64,000 nucleotides of DNA from Nakamurella sp. A5-74 (GTDB lineage: Bacteria; Actinomycetota; Actinomycetes; Mycobacteriales; Nakamurellaceae). The stretch covers positions 2,666,001 to 2,730,000 of the forward strand of contig NZ_CP159218.1 of assembly GCF_040438885.1 (NCBI RefSeq), written 5' to 3'. Below, piece by piece: positions 41,922 through 48,160 of the stretch (positions are counted from its first letter, which is position 1; each line of letters opens with the position of its first letter). Both the position numbers and the translations under genes were made by a program. Below the pieces are notes generated by a model that was not told the DNA's origin, did no database searches, and was given only the letters and a program-made list of their open reading frames with translations.

Positions 41922-41939
41922 TTAGGATTGCCTAGGCTA
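41922..41939 (+). promoter_or_regulatory. Possible DtxR/MntR-type operator before the ZIP gene
   Basis: TTAGGATTGCCTAGGCTA lies about 30 bp before the ZIP start. It shares the TTAGG...CTA layout of iron/manganese boxes bound by DtxR-family repressors, but the symmetry is imperfect. A metal-responsive promoter for a metal importer would make sense. The match is by eye only. Confidence 0.4.
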
Positions 41940-41966
41940 TCTGCGACGGAGCAGGAAGGTGGCCAA

Positions 41967-42806
41967 ATGGGTCCAGGTCAGATAACGGTCCTCGGCGCGA
42001 TCGCCGGATTCACCATCCTCTTGGGACTGCCCCTGGGTCGGTTGCGCTCGGTCGCGCCGCGGACCCGACTGGCGCTCAACGGCGCAGCCATCGGCATCCT
42101 GGTCTTCCTTCTGTGGGACGTCCTCAGCGCCGGCATCGCACCCGTCGAAGCCGCCCTGGAAGCCGCCAACGACGATCACGCCGGCTGGGGCACCTTCATC
42201 GGTTACGCCGCACTACTCGTCGCCGGCCTCGCGCTCGGATTGATCGCGCTCGCCGGTTACGAACAGTGGATCTCCGGCCGCCGCCCCAGCCTCGGCCCCG
42301 GCGCGGTAGCCACCGCAGAACTGACCAGTCGAGGACGGCTGATCGTCACCAGCGGACAGCAGCTGGCCCTCCTGATCGCGATCGGCATCGGCGTCCACAA
42401 CTTCGCCGAAGGCCTGGCCATCGGCCAATCAGCGGCCGGCGGCGCGACCGACCTCGCGCTGCTGCTGGTCATCGGCTTCGCCGCGCACAACGCCACCGAG
42501 GGGTTCGGCATCGTCGGACCCACCGCCGGCGAGCCCATCCGACCCAGCTGGAAGCTGCTGCTGATGCTCGGCATCATCGGCGGCGGACCCACCTTCCTCG
42601 GAACTCTCATCGGGCAGTCCTACGTCAGCGACACCCTGAACATCGCCTTCCTCGCCACCGCCGCAGGATCGATCCTGTATGTGATCTTGCAACTCGCCGT
42701 CGTCGCAGCCCGAGCCGCCAAACCCATCCTGCTCAGCACGGCATTGCTGGGCGGCTTCATTCTCGGGCTCGGCACCGATTTCCTCCTCGACGTCGCCGGC
42801 GGATAA
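41967..42806 (+). CDS. ZIP-family metal transporter
   Basis: A 279-residue protein with eight membrane helices. The metal-site helices carry the ZIP signatures IGVHNFAEGLAIGQS and GFAAHNATEGFGIVGP. By family it imports Zn2+ or other divalent metals. ATG 41967 with an AGGAAGG site was preferred to an upstream start at 41928. A gap of 116 bp from the preceding gene and the DtxR-like box suggest it has its own promoter. A typical intracellular His loop is missing. Confidence 0.92.
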   Translation: MGPGQITVLGAIAGFTILLGLPLGRLRSVAPRTRLALNGAAIGILVFLLWDVLSAGIAPVEAALEAANDDHAGWGTFIGYAALLVAGLALGLIALAGYEQWISGRRPSLGPGAVATAELTSRGRLIVTSGQQLALLIAIGIGVHNFAEGLAIGQSAAGGATDLALLLVIGFAAHNATEGFGIVGPTAGEPIRPSWKLLLMLGIIGGGPTFLGTLIGQSYVSDTLNIAFLATAAGSILYVILQLAVVAARAAKPILLSTALLGGFILGLGTDFLLDVAGG

Positions 42807-43070
42807 CGCCCTACCCGCCGCGGGGCTCGCTCACCCACTCGCCGGCGATTCGATCTTGCTGAAGACACCCGGTGGGGTCACGAGCCAAGGAGAGCCTTCC
42901 AACCGACCGGCCCGGCACTTCCGATGCTTGAATCAGCGTCCCAGGTTTCCTGGGATGATTCACAGGATCGTCCGTCACCGGTAGCGGGTGCCACTGCCGG
43001 ACACGGGTCGACAGGTCTGAGTCGTTCACTGGCCGGCCCTGCTCGGAGGTGTGTTCAGCACCGCTGGTTG
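42807..43070. other. Convergent spacer with IS-end-like palindrome
   Basis: No supportable gene. At 42939-42955 is the palindrome TCCCAGG-TTT-CCTGGGA. The stretch 42929-42953 also resembles the outer end of the IS3 element at 46724 (GCGTCCCAGGTTTCCTG against GCGCCCCAGGTTTCCTG). It may act as a terminator between the two convergent genes, or be a leftover insertion-sequence end. Confidence 0.5.
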
Positions 43071-44123
43071 TCAGGAGTACAGGATTCGTTGCCAGGTCAG
43101 TACGGCAGGGTTGTGTTTGTCGATGGTTACTTTCAGCCATTCGTCGGCGTCGGTGGATCCTTCGATGGTGACCCGGTGCAGGTTGCTGACGGGCGTGGTC
43201 AGTTGGTAGAACGGCAGCCACTTGGATCCTGCCGCGAGTGGGGTGTCCTGGCGGAAGACGTGGCTGTCGCCGTTGAACAGGTATACCGGTCCTCGGAAGT
43301 TTCGGCTTTCCTGCGCGATGGCGGCGACTACGGGTGTGAAGGCGAAGTAGTCGGCGTAGGTGGGTGCCGGAACGGTGGCGTCGAACATGTCGGCTTGGGT
43401 GAGAAGTACCACTGCCCGGTTGTGGTCGCGGCGGGCTGCGGCGAAGGTGTCGCGGATCAGCTGGATGTCGGCGGCGGTGCGGCCCAGGACTTCGGCGCTT
43501 TGTTCCGGGGTGGGTGCGGTCAGGCCGAGGCCGGTCCAGGGAGCGAGGCTGTTGTTGCTGCCGACCAGGTGGACGGCGGCGAAGGCGACGTCGCCCCGCT
43601 GGTAGCTGACGTTTTCTGGGTAGCCGTGGGCGACTTGGGAAGTGACGCGGATCGGGTGCTGTCCCAGGGTGCGGCCGGGCCTGGGGAAGAAGTCTTGTCG
43701 GACGGCGGCGAGTCGTTCCAGCGGGTTGTAGGCGCCGTTGTTGGTGCGGTGACAGTCGGTCCATTCGTTGTCGCCCGGGGTGTAGACGAGAGGGTTGCGG
43801 AAGGTGTCGAACTCTGACCTGACCTTGCCGTAGTAGGCGTCGTCGCAGGTGGACGAGCCGTTCTTGATGTCGCCGAGGTGGTCGACGAGTTGCACCTGCC
43901 GGTCGGCGTTGATCTGCGCAATCCGTTCCGGGAACTCCCTGATCTGCGTGGCGCCGTAGGGGATGTCGCCGATGACCGCGAATGTGAACGCTGGATCGGG
44001 ATGACCGCCCTTGGTGTGGTCACCGGAGGAGGGGGCGATGGGGCTGGCTGCAGCTACTCCGCCCAGGCTTGCGAGCAACAGCTCGGCGGCCAGCGCAACC
44101 ATCACGATGCGGCCTGATTTCAT
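43071..44123 (-). CDS. Secreted metallophosphatase
   Basis: A 350-residue exported calcineurin-like phosphoesterase. A Sec signal peptide (RIVMVALAAELLLASLGGVA) is followed by the metal-site blocks FAVIGDIPYG, QLVDHLGDIKNG, YTPGDNEWTDCHR and YLFNGDSHVF. The GDIPYG-GDNEWTDC order resembles purple-acid-type phosphatases of actinobacteria. ATG 44123 has AAGGAG ahead. It is the last gene of a three-gene operon, 32 bp after the unknown gene. The substrate is unknown. Confidence 0.88.
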   Translation of the reverse strand: MKSGRIVMVALAAELLLASLGGVAAASPIAPSSGDHTKGGHPDPAFTFAVIGDIPYGATQIREFPERIAQINADRQVQLVDHLGDIKNGSSTCDDAYYGKVRSEFDTFRNPLVYTPGDNEWTDCHRTNNGAYNPLERLAAVRQDFFPRPGRTLGQHPIRVTSQVAHGYPENVSYQRGDVAFAAVHLVGSNNSLAPWTGLGLTAPTPEQSAEVLGRTAADIQLIRDTFAAARRDHNRAVVLLTQADMFDATVPAPTYADYFAFTPVVAAIAQESRNFRGPVYLFNGDSHVFRQDTPLAAGSKWLPFYQLTTPVSNLHRVTIEGSTDADEWLKVTIDKHNPAVLTWQRILYS

Positions 44124-44155
44124 GACACTCCTTAATCGAGAGGGTTGGTGCTGCG

Positions 44156-44827
44156 TCAGTTGTGGTTGGCGCAGCACGGAGTCGGTTTCGGTGTTTCGAA
44201 GGGGACCCAGGTGTCGCCGACCGCCGGCTGGACATGCAGGACCAGCCGGCCGGAGTTCCAGCGGGGGCGCAGAAAATCGCGGGTGACCAGCAGTGAACCG
44301 GGTGCCGGGTCGCCGCCACCGAGTACTTCGATGCGGTCTATCGCGGTGCTCAGCACATCAGCGACAGTGACTGTGCCGGTGAGTTTGTCGCTGCCGGGAA
44401 ACCGCACCACCCGGCCGCTGCTGCGGTCATGGTGGGCGGCAGCGGCCTGCTCTGCGGAGCCCTGCAGGGCCGGCAGTCCGATCCCGGATCCGCCGGTCCA
44501 GATCGCTCCGGTGGTGGTTCCCGCGGTGTTGAGTAGGGATGAGAGCAGTTCGACCACACCGGCAGCGTCAGCGGTCGGCGACATCGAGAGGGACAGGGAG
44601 ACGTGCGGAATTTCGTCCACCTGCGCCCGGTGGGTGGCCGCGGTGCCGACGTGAACCCCTTCCTGGCGCAGCGCATGGATCGCGCGGGCCAGGAAGTGCT
44701 CGGCCGCTGCTTCACCGGGCAGTCCACCGTCAATTCCCACGATCTGCTCGAACGGGGTCGGGCGTCGTGCGTCGACGGTGTCGATGGTGCCGGTCACGGC
44801 GGTATTGGTCATGACGGTGCTGGTCAT
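44156..44827 (-). CDS. Protein of unknown family in the PHP operon
   Basis: A 223-residue soluble protein without signal peptide or membrane segments. Notable stretches are TPFEQIVGIDGGLPGEAAAE, HRAQVDEIPHVSLSLSMSPT, TGGSGIGLPALQGSAEQAAA and a C-terminal FETPKPTPCCANHN. The Cys-Cys...His end and scattered His residues could bind a metal. I do not recognise the family. ATG 44827 overlaps the stop of the PHP gene (ATGA), so the two are produced together. Confidence 0.7.
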   Translation of the reverse strand: MTSTVMTNTAVTGTIDTVDARRPTPFEQIVGIDGGLPGEAAAEHFLARAIHALRQEGVHVGTAATHRAQVDEIPHVSLSLSMSPTADAAGVVELLSSLLNTAGTTTGAIWTGGSGIGLPALQGSAEQAAAAHHDRSSGRVVRFPGSDKLTGTVTVADVLSTAIDRIEVLGGGDPAPGSLLVTRDFLRPRWNSGRLVLHVQPAVGDTWVPFETPKPTPCCANHN

Positions 44828-46542
44828 TTGTTGTTGGGCAGCACCCACATGGGGTTGGTGTAGAACCACAGGTCATTCCATGGGTCGGCGTCGCCGACAA
44901 CGTCCATCTTCGGGCCTGCGGGATCCACTGCGGCGCCCATCAAGCCGGGAGCCAACCGCTTTCCATCAGAACCGCGGAGCCGCACGTAGAAGCCGTCATC
45001 GAGGCGACCCAGCGGGTAGGTCAGCACGATGGTGCGGCTCTGGCCGCTGACGTCGTAGGACTTCACGACGCGGGTGTGCGGGGCGGCGAGGGTGTCCCGG
45101 TCGTCGACCTGGCCGGTGACCGCGCCGCGGATCACGTCGACCTGGGCCAGACTGGGCAGGAACTCCGACCAGTTCGGCAGCCGTGCCGGGGTGATCCGGA
45201 TCTGCAGGGTGACCGGGGTGCCGCGGCGGGCGTGCAGCACCCCGCCGAGGGGTACTTCATCGTGGCCGGCGCGGAGCCGGACGTCCAGCGCGTCGACGAG
45301 TCCGCCGTGATCCACCCACACTCGGCCGGCTCGCAGGCCCTGCATGACGGCGGCGTAGGAGAAGCCGTCGGAGCCGACGTGGGTGCGGCTGTAGTAGCCG
45401 GGCCAGAAATCGCCGTTGGCCAGCTGCGGTGCGGTGATGTGTACGGGGTCGTTGTAGTAGCCGTTGGTGGTGAAATCGCTGCCGGGTCCGCGCTGGGAGG
45501 TGTCGGACCAGACCTGGTGGCTGTCGGAGTTCGCGCTGATCCACCACGGTTTGCCCTCGGCGAGCAGGCTGTCCCACAAGCCGCCGACGGTGGCGGTCAT
45601 CCAGTCGAAACCGCCGAAGGTGCGGTAACTCTCCAGGGGGTAGCCGGGGAAGCTGGCCGCCGGATCGGGGCTGTTGTCGTAGAAGCCGCGGCCCGAGCCC
45701 GGGCCGTACGGCTTCGGGATGCCGGCGGCCTGGTGACCGGGTGCGCCTTCCATTCCGACGGCGATCTTCGGGGCGGCGTCGCGCCAGCCGCGGATCTCGT
45801 GCGGCGAGTCGATGCCCTTGCGGGCCGGGTGGTTGGCGAACATCAGGGCATCCGAGACCCGCCGCGAGGCCACGGAGTCGGACAGGAAATGCAGGCCGGC
45901 CACCGCCAAGGCCTCGTTGGCCGCGGTGTTCGCGGTCGCTGACTTGACTGCCCCGTCGTAGCCGTTCTCGAACGCCTTGAGGACGGACACCTCATTGCGG
46001 CCCGGGTGGACGAACACGGTGCCGTGCTCGGCGGCCGGAATGTTCCACTCCAAACCCTGGAACACCAGGGTGTCGGCCACGTCGCGGCGGGCCGCGACGA
46101 TGTCCGGGTTGACCTTCTCCACGCCGATCTTGGCGTGCTGGATGGTGCCGTGGTCGGTGATCACCATCCAGTCCAGGCCGTAGGCATTGGCGTGGCGGAC
46201 CTGGTCGATGACCCGGTACAGCCCGTCCGGGGAGAATTGGGTGTGGATGTGGTGATCCCCGGCCAGCCACTGGTAGCCGCCGCGAGGCACCTTCACCGGT
46301 TGACCGGCCGGGGTGGTCGCGGCGGCCGTTCCCGGACCGGCGATCACCGCGGCCGCCGCGCCGGCGCCCAGCACACCGGCCGCTCGGAAGAAACGCCTCC
46401 GCCCGAGATCGTTGGGTGCCAGGTCGCTGTCCTGAATGCTCAGGTCGACCGCGGGGCTGAGCACTGCTGGCTCGCCCCCATCGTGTCGATGGCCGTCGGT
46501 GTGGGAATGTTCGTGGACGTGACCGCCGTGACTGTGCTGCAT
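44824..46542 (-). CDS. Tat-exported PHP-domain phosphoesterase with His-rich N-terminus
   Basis: A 572-residue protein. It begins with a His-rich stretch (MQHSHGGHVHEHSHTDGHRH, about 1-20). A Tat motif follows (LGRRRFFRAAGVLGAGAAAA, about 47-66). The PHP domain has its metal ligands: GDHHIHTQFSPDGLY, MVITDHGTIQHAK, FQGLEWNIPAAEHGTVFVHP, ALMFANHPARKG and ISANSDSHQVW. A C-terminal beta-rich part follows. A His-rich segment before a Tat signal is unusual. It may load metal before folded export. The exact substrate is unknown. Confidence 0.85.
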   Translation of the reverse strand: MQHSHGGHVHEHSHTDGHRHDGGEPAVLSPAVDLSIQDSDLAPNDLGRRRFFRAAGVLGAGAAAAVIAGPGTAAATTPAGQPVKVPRGGYQWLAGDHHIHTQFSPDGLYRVIDQVRHANAYGLDWMVITDHGTIQHAKIGVEKVNPDIVAARRDVADTLVFQGLEWNIPAAEHGTVFVHPGRNEVSVLKAFENGYDGAVKSATANTAANEALAVAGLHFLSDSVASRRVSDALMFANHPARKGIDSPHEIRGWRDAAPKIAVGMEGAPGHQAAGIPKPYGPGSGRGFYDNSPDPAASFPGYPLESYRTFGGFDWMTATVGGLWDSLLAEGKPWWISANSDSHQVWSDTSQRGPGSDFTTNGYYNDPVHITAPQLANGDFWPGYYSRTHVGSDGFSYAAVMQGLRAGRVWVDHGGLVDALDVRLRAGHDEVPLGGVLHARRGTPVTLQIRITPARLPNWSEFLPSLAQVDVIRGAVTGQVDDRDTLAAPHTRVVKSYDVSGQSRTIVLTYPLGRLDDGFYVRLRGSDGKRLAPGLMGAAVDPAGPKMDVVGDADPWNDLWFYTNPMWVLPNNK

Positions 46543-46767
46543 GCCGACCTCACAAGTGTGGACGTTGGTGGCGAAAGTTGTTGCCCCAGCAGAGCATCAG
46601 CAGGTGAACCCGGGGTGGACGATGTGCGAACATCCAGCCTCCGCGCCCGGGCCATATCGACGCGCGGAGTTCATCCGCGCCAGGCAGCCTGGGGATGCCG
46701 CACCGCCCACGGTCGGCACATCCTGAAGCGCCCCAGGTTTCCTGCCGCATCCTTGTGAGTTGGAAGG

Positions 46768-47088
46768 ATGAGCAGCATGCCGAAGAAGATCGATCCGGAG
46801 CTCCGTACTCGTGCGGTGCGGCTGGTCACTGAGCACCGCGGGCAGTACGCGTCGCTGACGGCCGCGTCAGCGGCTGTGGCGAAGCAGTTGGGCGTCGGGC
46901 AGGAGTCCGTCCGACGGTGGGTGGTGCAGACCGATGTCGATGCCGGTGGCCGGGACGGTGTCACGACCCAGGAGTTGGAAGAGATCCGGAAGCTCAAGGC
47001 CGAGAACAGGCAGCTGCGTGAGGACGTGGCGATCCTGAAAGCGGCGACAACTTTCTTCGCGGGGGAACTCGACCCCCGCACCCGTTGA
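46768..47088 (+). CDS. IS3-family transposase OrfA
   Basis: A 106-residue HTH protein: PKKIDPELRTRAVRLVTEHR, AKQLGVGQESVRRWVVQTDV, then a leucine-zipper-like LEEIRKLKAENRQLREDVAI and LKAATTFFAGELD. The frame of orfB overlaps the end in the -1 register, as usual in IS3, where a fusion transposase arises by frameshifting. A classical A-rich slippery site is not obvious; CTGAAAG at about 47035 is the nearest. Confidence 0.93.
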   Translation: MSSMPKKIDPELRTRAVRLVTEHRGQYASLTAASAAVAKQLGVGQESVRRWVVQTDVDAGGRDGVTTQELEEIRKLKAENRQLREDVAILKAATTFFAGELDPRTR

Positions 47089-48051
47089 TCATGGGGTTCA
47101 TCGATTCCTTGCGCAGCGAGGGTCAGGCGGTCGGGTCGATCTGCCGGGTACTGCGCGAGCAGGGCTGCCAGGTCGCCGCGCGAACCTACCGGGCTTGGCG
47201 GGACGGCCGGCCGGCGGCCAGGGTGATCAGCGATGCGTACGGCGTGGACGCGGTGCGGTCCGCGGCCTGGACCGTCGACAGCCAGGGTCGACGGCAGCTG
47301 ACCCCGGAGGGGTTGTACGGGCGACGGAAAATGACTGCGCTGCTGCGCCGCACAGTCGATGATGATGTCAGTGCCGGGGCGGTGGATCGGGCGATGAAAT
47401 TGTTGAGCCTCAACGGGGTTCGACGGGACAAGGGTGTCCGGACGACGATCCCGGCGAAGGATGGAAAGCATGCCTGTGACCTGCTGGACCGGGACTTCAC
47501 CGCGCCGGCCCCGACCCGGGTGTGGGTCACCGACTTCACCTACGTGCGGACCTGGGCGGGATGGGTGTACGTGGCGTTCATCATGGACGTCTTCGCCCAA
47601 CGGATCGTGGCCTGGCACGCCGCCACCTCGAAGGAGACCGAGCTGGTCATGATCCCGCTGCGGATGGCGTGTGGGAAAGCGGCCGGCAGGGCCACCCCGC
47701 AGTCCCCGGCACCCTGGTCCACCACTTCGACGCCGGGTCGCAGTACACGTCGGTGCTGCTGACCGATCACCTGGCGTTGGAGGGCACATCGCCGTCGATC
47801 GGATCTGTGGGCGACGCCTACGACAACGCGCTGATGGAGTCGATCAACGGCCTGTACAAGGCCGAGTGCGCACGGACCACCGTGTTCCACGCCGCCCGTA
47901 CAAAAGCATCGCGGACGTCGAGTACGCCACCGCGTGCTGGGTCGACTGGTACAACAATCGGCGCTTGCATGGCACGCTGGGAAACGTCCCACCTGTCGAG
48001 TACGAGCAAGCCCACTACGCGGCCCTCAACAGAGAGCCGCAACCCGTATGA
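47085..48051 (+). pseudogene. IS3-family transposase OrfB, frameshifted
   Basis: An OrfB integrase-type transposase split over three frames. The first part runs to about 47680 (HTH21-like GLYGRRKMTALLRR, first catalytic Asp in RVWVTDFTYVR). The second is about 47690-47898 (LVHHFDAGSQYTSVLLTDHL with the second Asp, NALMESINGLYKAE with the catalytic Glu). The third ends in DWYNNRRLHGTLGNVPPVEY. Two single-base shifts separate them. The catalytic DDE triad is present but cannot be made as one protein. Confidence 0.88.
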
Positions 48052-48160
48052 GAGCGGCACGGAACCTGGGGCGCTTCAACACGATGATCCGTCACCATCA
48101 CCACCCCCACCGGACACCGCTACACCACCACACCACCGGAAGCACTCGGACTACCCGCGA

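Follow-up and report, generated by a model that had tools for sequence, protein, structure and literature searches.

A candidate metal-maturation pair in actinomycetes: a PHP-domain protein with a His-rich leader ahead of its twin-arginine signal, and its coupled partner U

Few exported metalloenzymes have a known route to the correct metal before they leave the cell, and the locus described here raises the question of whether one such enzyme may be served by a dedicated partner encoded beside it. The locus lies in a 64,000-nucleotide stretch of Nakamurella sp. A5-74 (contig NZ_CP159218.1, positions 2,666,001 to 2,730,000; hereafter the window), in which a minus-strand gene for a PHP-domain protein of 572 residues (44824..46542; ATG start, identified by open reading frame and Pfam) is followed on the same strand by one for a protein of 223 residues, here called U (44156..44827). 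U belongs to no Pfam or NCBIfam family, and its ATG overlaps the stop codon of the PHP gene in the sequence ATGA. An initial annotation of the window had reported these two open reading frames together with a third, for a metallophosphatase (M), and had proposed that the three form one system; all three are real and lie on the minus strand with the coordinates given in this report. The conserved unit, however, is two genes, PHP and U. The simplest reading of their sequences is that the PHP precursor would carry a metal tag on which a cytoplasmic partner, equipped with a Cys/His tail, would act. Our fuller account, to which we give about an even chance of being correct, is that the PHP protein would be a Pho-controlled exported phosphoesterase, with U loading or proofreading its metal prior to export by the twin-arginine translocation (Tat) system.

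The PHP-U pair and its distribution

A first scan of contigs with the window U as query found no relative. Searches of the genus and class identified U in one of the 16 other genomes of the genus and, at the class level, in 36 of 394 genomes, the source genome included; the latter has a second U copy, beside a PHP protein that is 80% identical. Thirty-nine loci were fetched from these searches, and all except L074, 38 in total, contain U at E <= 1e-4. A PHP gene adjoins U in 26 of the 38, with an overlapping start in 21 of these. A set of named relatives was obtained by scanning contigs with the pattern PFExPxPTPC, which returned 211 relatives, 80 of them kept; since this pattern selects for the C-terminal tail of U, conservation of the tail was not counted on the named set. 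PHP stands beside U at 77 of the 80 named loci and the 4-base overlap is present at 74 of the 77, which bears out the earlier description of the PHP gene as coupled to that for a 223-residue protein. The loci without PHP are those of Amycolatopsis acidicola (L130), a contig that ends at U (L151), and one from which the PHP gene was seemingly deleted recently (L170); the overlap is missing at L159 and L186, where the next U start codon is 1.2 and 3.2 kb away, and at L120, where the junction reads TGATG.

Besides Streptomyces, the pair is kept in nine further named genera of actinomycetes, in a Nanopelagicales genome and in a single genome from a different class. This last belongs to a phylum sample in which 10 of 396 genomes have U; its PHP gene, encoding a protein 48% identical and bearing a His-rich leader, overlaps a U that ends CGKDH. 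When 90 neighbourhoods (80 named and 10 others) were clustered, the two largest gene clusters were U and PHP, and among the 25 clusters shown none besides these was marked in more than 5 of 23 non-Streptomyces loci.

M, the next gene downstream of U (43071..44123, minus strand), lies outside this conserved unit. It encodes a Sec-type metallophosphatase of 350 residues that matches Pfam Metallophos at 23.1 bits (cut-off 21.5); the mechanically called frame starts at a GTG upstream of 44123, and the ATG at 44123, which is closely preceded by AAGGAG, is preferable as the start. Its position in the window, 32 bases downstream of U and in identical orientation, favours the three-gene phosphate-scavenging system of the initial annotation, as does the occurrence of M about 13 kb from the pair in two other genomes, both of one genus (L112 and L113). 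M was nevertheless found beside the pair at none of 39 loci (both strands) and at none of the 80 named loci (same strand only searched), so that it adjoins the pair in the window only, and among the class genomes M occurs in 36, of which just three (the window's own, G097 and G289) have a PHP gene linked to U as well. The three-gene system is largely refuted by these counts and retains hardly any chance of being correct.

Leader, tail and the nature of U

From its N-terminus, the PHP protein consists of a His-rich leader (residues 1-22), a conserved pre-signal segment, a twin-arginine signal, the PHP domain and a C-terminal domain of the CehA/McbA type. It matches the Pfam PHP model (PF02811) at 32.9 bits, above the cut-off of 26.4, and its best NCBIfam match, CehA/McbA (NF038032), scores 70.8 bits, under the cut-off of 80. 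Residues H98, H100, H131, E165, H173, H238, D340 and H342, which we take to be metal ligands of the PHP superfamily, are invariant in 55 of 55 aligned PHP proteins. After the His-rich leader the sequence reads RRRFF and then a hydrophobic stretch, with the twin arginine before it (RRRFFRAAGVLGAG), and RR is present in all 76 leaders read from named relatives. These features indicate that the PHP protein is probably a metal-dependent enzyme, with export by Tat predicted. U has no hydrophobic start, its maximum hydropathy over 15 residues being 0.64, compared to 1.99 for the PHP protein and 2.45 for M.

The leader (46477..46542, minus strand) has 8 His among 22 residues and is kept in U-linked PHP proteins. 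The initial annotation had warned that the true start codon might lie downstream of it; the leader proved instead to be a true N-terminus, with leaders of 4 to 15 His at starts supported by ribosome-binding sites in all 26 further U-linked relatives from the family and class samples and in the 76 named relatives whose start was read. Starts were chosen by the ribosome-binding site, and in the named set the script preferred a His-rich start. As the leader precedes the twin arginines, Tat topology implies that cleavage of the signal peptide should remove it too and that it would act only before export.

The association of the leader with U was assessed with 55 PHP genes, comprising 54 class matches and one congener (L037). 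Twenty-seven of these have U, including L073, where a script's E-value limit had missed a U found at the locus by other searches; 26 have leaders with His only, and that of L073 has Cys and His. The 28 without U are made up of eight genes of one genus with MCH... leaders, L105 with Cys and His, and 19 lacking a His leader, among which is counted L100, its leader being hidden by Ns. By leader type, U is thus next door in 26/26 cases with His only, 1/10 with Cys and His, and 0/19 with no His leader, and the importance attached to the leader from the outset was upheld. A tree of PHP proteins built without the leader places the eight MCH genes as one clade inside a U-bearing group.

A second association involves the C-terminal tail of U, which in the window is the TPCCANHN-stop region (44156..44179, minus strand) with Cys-Cys-X-X-His. 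The tail is present in 26 of 27 PHP-linked U proteins, the window's included, and in none of 12 PHP-free copies; the earlier suggestion that the PHP protein has a metal-handling partner in the cytoplasm has indirect support. Ten of the 12 belong to a single genus, in whose ten genomes no PHP was matched at 1e-30, and the remaining two are second copies in genomes that hold a pair elsewhere; in the named set, the U of L130, with no PHP at its locus, ends CRAGH. The initial annotation had held that finding U widely without PHP would count against a link between them. U does occur without PHP at 12 of 38 loci, but those copies are without the Cys/His tail, which fits the proposed link. At the loci of the one genus (L055, L057-L060 and L062-L066), U without PHP and without the tail is followed in several cases by a convergent gene; the two tested encode LytR-CpsA-Psr proteins.

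What kind of protein U may be is suggested by two partial lines of evidence. U had no match at E <= 1 in Pfam or NCBIfam, the TorD-type Tat chaperone models, the TiaS model (NF040849) and that for methanogenesis marker 11 among them, and none among PDB sequences. A structure model built from a 55-sequence alignment (mean pLDDT 88.4, pTM 0.81) is uncertain in its first 25 residues and tail. Foldseek returned nothing at E <= 0.001 with this model, and VIA ranked TiaS first to sixth (Z 9.8 to 8.9), 105 residues of TiaS 5xob aligning with U 26-134 at a root-mean-square deviation of 2.8 and 13% identity; the following rows were ACT-type domains at Z 8.3, and values of Z 7 to 8 are common for unrelated folds. 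The C-terminal half alone gave a best Foldseek E of 2.3 and, with VIA, 0 of 74 chains at Z >= 2. For this half the evidence comes from profiles. The U profile matched two GIDDTD (TiaS-like) proteins of actinomycetes in the phylum sample (L206 7495-8283 and L207 3892-4701) with E-values per genome of 2.6e-10 and 5.6e-13; these proteins match the TiaS model at 8.8e-7 and 1.2e-5 and methanogenesis marker 11 at 3.2e-5 and 9.6e-9, in each case far below the model cut-off. Profile comparison aligned 84 columns of the C-terminal part of U with the GIDDTD proteins at a probability of 96.4% and an E of 1.1e-9, or a probability of 91.0% using the other U alignment. Because the N-terminal half by structure and the C-terminal half by profile match one family in the same order, the evidence suggests that U is a degenerate TiaS/GIDDTD relative, in which GIDGG stands at the place of the GIDDTD motif and DDTD is gone. 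One PHP-linked U of only 145 residues (L067 8426-8863) is missing most of the N-terminal domain and keeps the C-terminal part and tail. The GIDDTD gene of L206 overlaps a gene for a lipoprotein-like exported protein, making another coupled pair.

In an alternative reading, U would work on its own in the cytoplasm, as an enzyme or sensor in the pathway to which the PHP protein belongs, processing the PHP product or sensing metal or phosphate, for example, with the tail serving that task and the pairing reflecting co-regulation. TiaS/GIDDTD-type relatives of U do include enzymes, and some U copies, in one genus and elsewhere, stand without PHP. U nonetheless has no DDTD motif, and the loss of the tail in the 12 PHP-free copies ties the tail to PHP; we regard this alternative as unlikely.

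Regulation, proposed mechanism and rival explanations

A direct repeat resembling a PHO box, GTCCACC-N4-GTTCACC (46599..46620, minus strand), lies 78 nucleotides upstream of the PHP start. The published form, in the available text, consists of two GTTCACC units 11 nucleotides apart (PMC7244524), and upstream regions were scored over the 14 positions of two such units at this spacing; the motif was picked after the repeats had been seen, its form being taken from outside. The window repeat agrees at 13 of 14 positions, and none of 200 shuffles was as good. Among 93 U-linked upstream regions, 21 reach at least 11/14 in the orientation of the gene and 5 in the opposite one. The same threshold is reached by 0/11 U-less paralogs and 0/8 MCH genes, and by 13 of 16 non-Streptomyces genes of the class sample compared with 31 of 883 background upstream regions from the same loci. 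The pair is thus probably made under phosphate scarcity, to judge from these repeats, in keeping with the phosphate link first proposed for the locus. A zinc (Zur) link was considered and rejected: two Zur-like patterns were unmatched in the scanned upstream regions, and a Zip-like neighbour of the pair has no relative at 39 loci. Further upstream of PHP, at about 46640-46660 of the window, is a palindrome-like element (GATGTTCGCACATC), and an element like CATGTTCGCATG occurs upstream of PHP in L120, L126, L147 and L148.

Under the favoured account, phosphate limitation would lead a PhoP/RegX3-type regulator to switch on the operon. The PHP protein would fold in the cytoplasm, where its His-rich leader may hold metal ions or report metal status, and cytoplasmic U would bind this precursor, its C-terminal Cys/His tail delivering, removing or checking the metal. 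The metallated enzyme would then pass through Tat and, outside the cell, would presumably hydrolyse an organic phosphate ester, as its fold and putative regulation imply.

Several observations weigh against this account. PHO-like repeats of at least 11/14 occur in only 5 of 66 Streptomyces-like loci (59 aligned Streptomyces-type upstream regions have a different conserved block at about the same position), and in 3 of 11 named non-Streptomyces loci, the other eight falling short. Eight PHP genes (the MCH genes, L084-L091) keep a His leader with no U anywhere in the genome, and hence U is not always needed. A test of independent pairs had only three to draw on, two agreeing, none against and one tied (p 0.5), and the leader-U pattern consequently rests on few evolutionary events. 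The tail of L170, CCADH, persists although its PHP gene is gone, and L069 has PHP yet a truncated U, the one PHP-linked copy without the tail. The hydropathy test also separates poorly, as 0/76 PHP leaders reach 2.0 either.

Two of these points would suit a reading in which the leader and U are unlinked, the leader storing metal for the enzyme alone and U being retained by operon inheritance with the PHP gene: one genus retains the His leader without U, and independent changes on the tree are few. Adjacency of the two genes persists, however, across genera with otherwise different neighbours and in another class, and the tail is missing from PHP-free copies, making this reading quite improbable. 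The pairing could also mean that U is a hitch-hiking subunit that binds folded PHP protein and is co-exported through Tat, its Cys/His tail binding metal outside the cell in a structural or catalytic role. Obligate pairing and translational coupling are both consistent with a 1:1 complex, and U has no signal of its own; but this would leave unexplained why U is tied to a leader that is expected to be gone by the time the complex works outside, and eight PHP genes manage without U. We consider it unlikely.

Within the favoured account, a more specific and tentative proposal, on balance doubtful, is that U represents an undescribed class of Tat maturation factor. It would be a degenerate TiaS-type protein that has become a metal chaperone or proofreader, its Cys/His tail cooperating with a His-rich tag that the client carries at its front, uses only before export and sheds together with the signal peptide. 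In one genus, the Cys of the tag (MCH...) may stand in for the U tail in cis, which would allow the loss of U. A pair widespread in actinomycetes, Streptomyces included, would then be a two-gene system of removable His tag and dedicated partner, making metal choice and export proofreading testable with simple mutants. If true, this would assign a role to a protein family without a Pfam or NCBIfam model and would point to an unrecognised phosphate-scavenging enzyme.

Other elements flank the genes. An insertion element at 46724-48078 of the window, 180 bases upstream of the PHP start, has 25-nucleotide inverted ends that are 92% complementary and carries two overlapping transposase-type open reading frames; another copy, 90% identical, is found about 15 kb away from the genome's second PHP-U pair. 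On the far side of M, at 42935-42952, is an 18-nucleotide copy (94%) of an end of this element. PHP, U and M are hence bracketed by two insertion-element ends, an arrangement that may be left over from a transposition event or may be fortuitous. Convergent with M is a gene for a Zip-type metal transporter (41928-42806; Pfam 32.0 bits, under the 35.1 cut-off), which is absent from the vicinity of the pair at the 39 other loci. At 24 Streptomyces loci a secreted-type gene diverges from PHP, 213-271 nucleotides away in 23 of them, and a representative has Exo_endo_phos2 and Jacalin domains.

Comparison with known systems

The window PHP protein resembles CehA/McbA in combining a PHP domain with a C-terminal extension, and differs from it in falling under the 80-bit cut-off of a model (NF038032) that includes neither a His-rich leader nor a U partner. 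PhoD and PhoX are Pho-regulon phosphatases exported by Tat, folded, metal-dependent and under phosphate control. The proposed PHP enzyme would share these properties, although the folds of PhoD and PhoX are unlike PHP, and we know of no dedicated partner with a Cys/His tail for either. U, in turn, resembles TiaS in the structure of its N-terminal domain and the GIDDTD profile in its C-terminal part, but it has no DDTD and matches neither the TiaS nor the methanogenesis marker 11 model of NCBIfam.

A literature search, with most subscription papers outside its reach, found no paper on the PHP-U pair among the matches listed. SCO6052, another candidate for the Streptomyces pair, appeared in none of the papers searched. 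Identity of the pair with SCO1906 was dropped: the SUF genes of Streptomyces sp. CCM_MD2014 lie 4.7 Mb from the pair, and SCO1906 should lie near SUF, a gene order that a further check did not confirm. SCO1906 is described, in the available text of two papers, as a Tat-dependent phosphate-starvation protein of Streptomyces (PMC2267785, PMC2367054).

Both Tat chaperones and metal chaperones have been described before; to our knowledge, the PHP-U arrangement and the U family have not. TorD-type Tat chaperones, as presented in the accessible part of the source, are cytoplasmic partners encoded beside cofactor-bearing Tat substrates (PMC8428690); U differs in having no Pfam match at E <= 1 and in its Cys/His tail, and its client in having a His leader. 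SlyD, a nickel-binding chaperone with a metal-binding His-rich end, also binds Tat signal peptides (PMC11198818, available text), but it is a general prolyl isomerase chaperone with no sequence match to U. In the cutFOG operon of Rhodobacter capsulatus, the Tat-exported metalloenzyme CutO is encoded with a metal chaperone, CutG (PMC9973294, available text); there the metal is copper, CutG has its own Tat signal, and no search related the proteins of that operon to PHP or U. By analogy, and as far as these sources extend, SlyD, the TorD-type chaperones and CutO/CutG may be viewed as precedents for parts of the mechanism proposed for the PHP-U pair.

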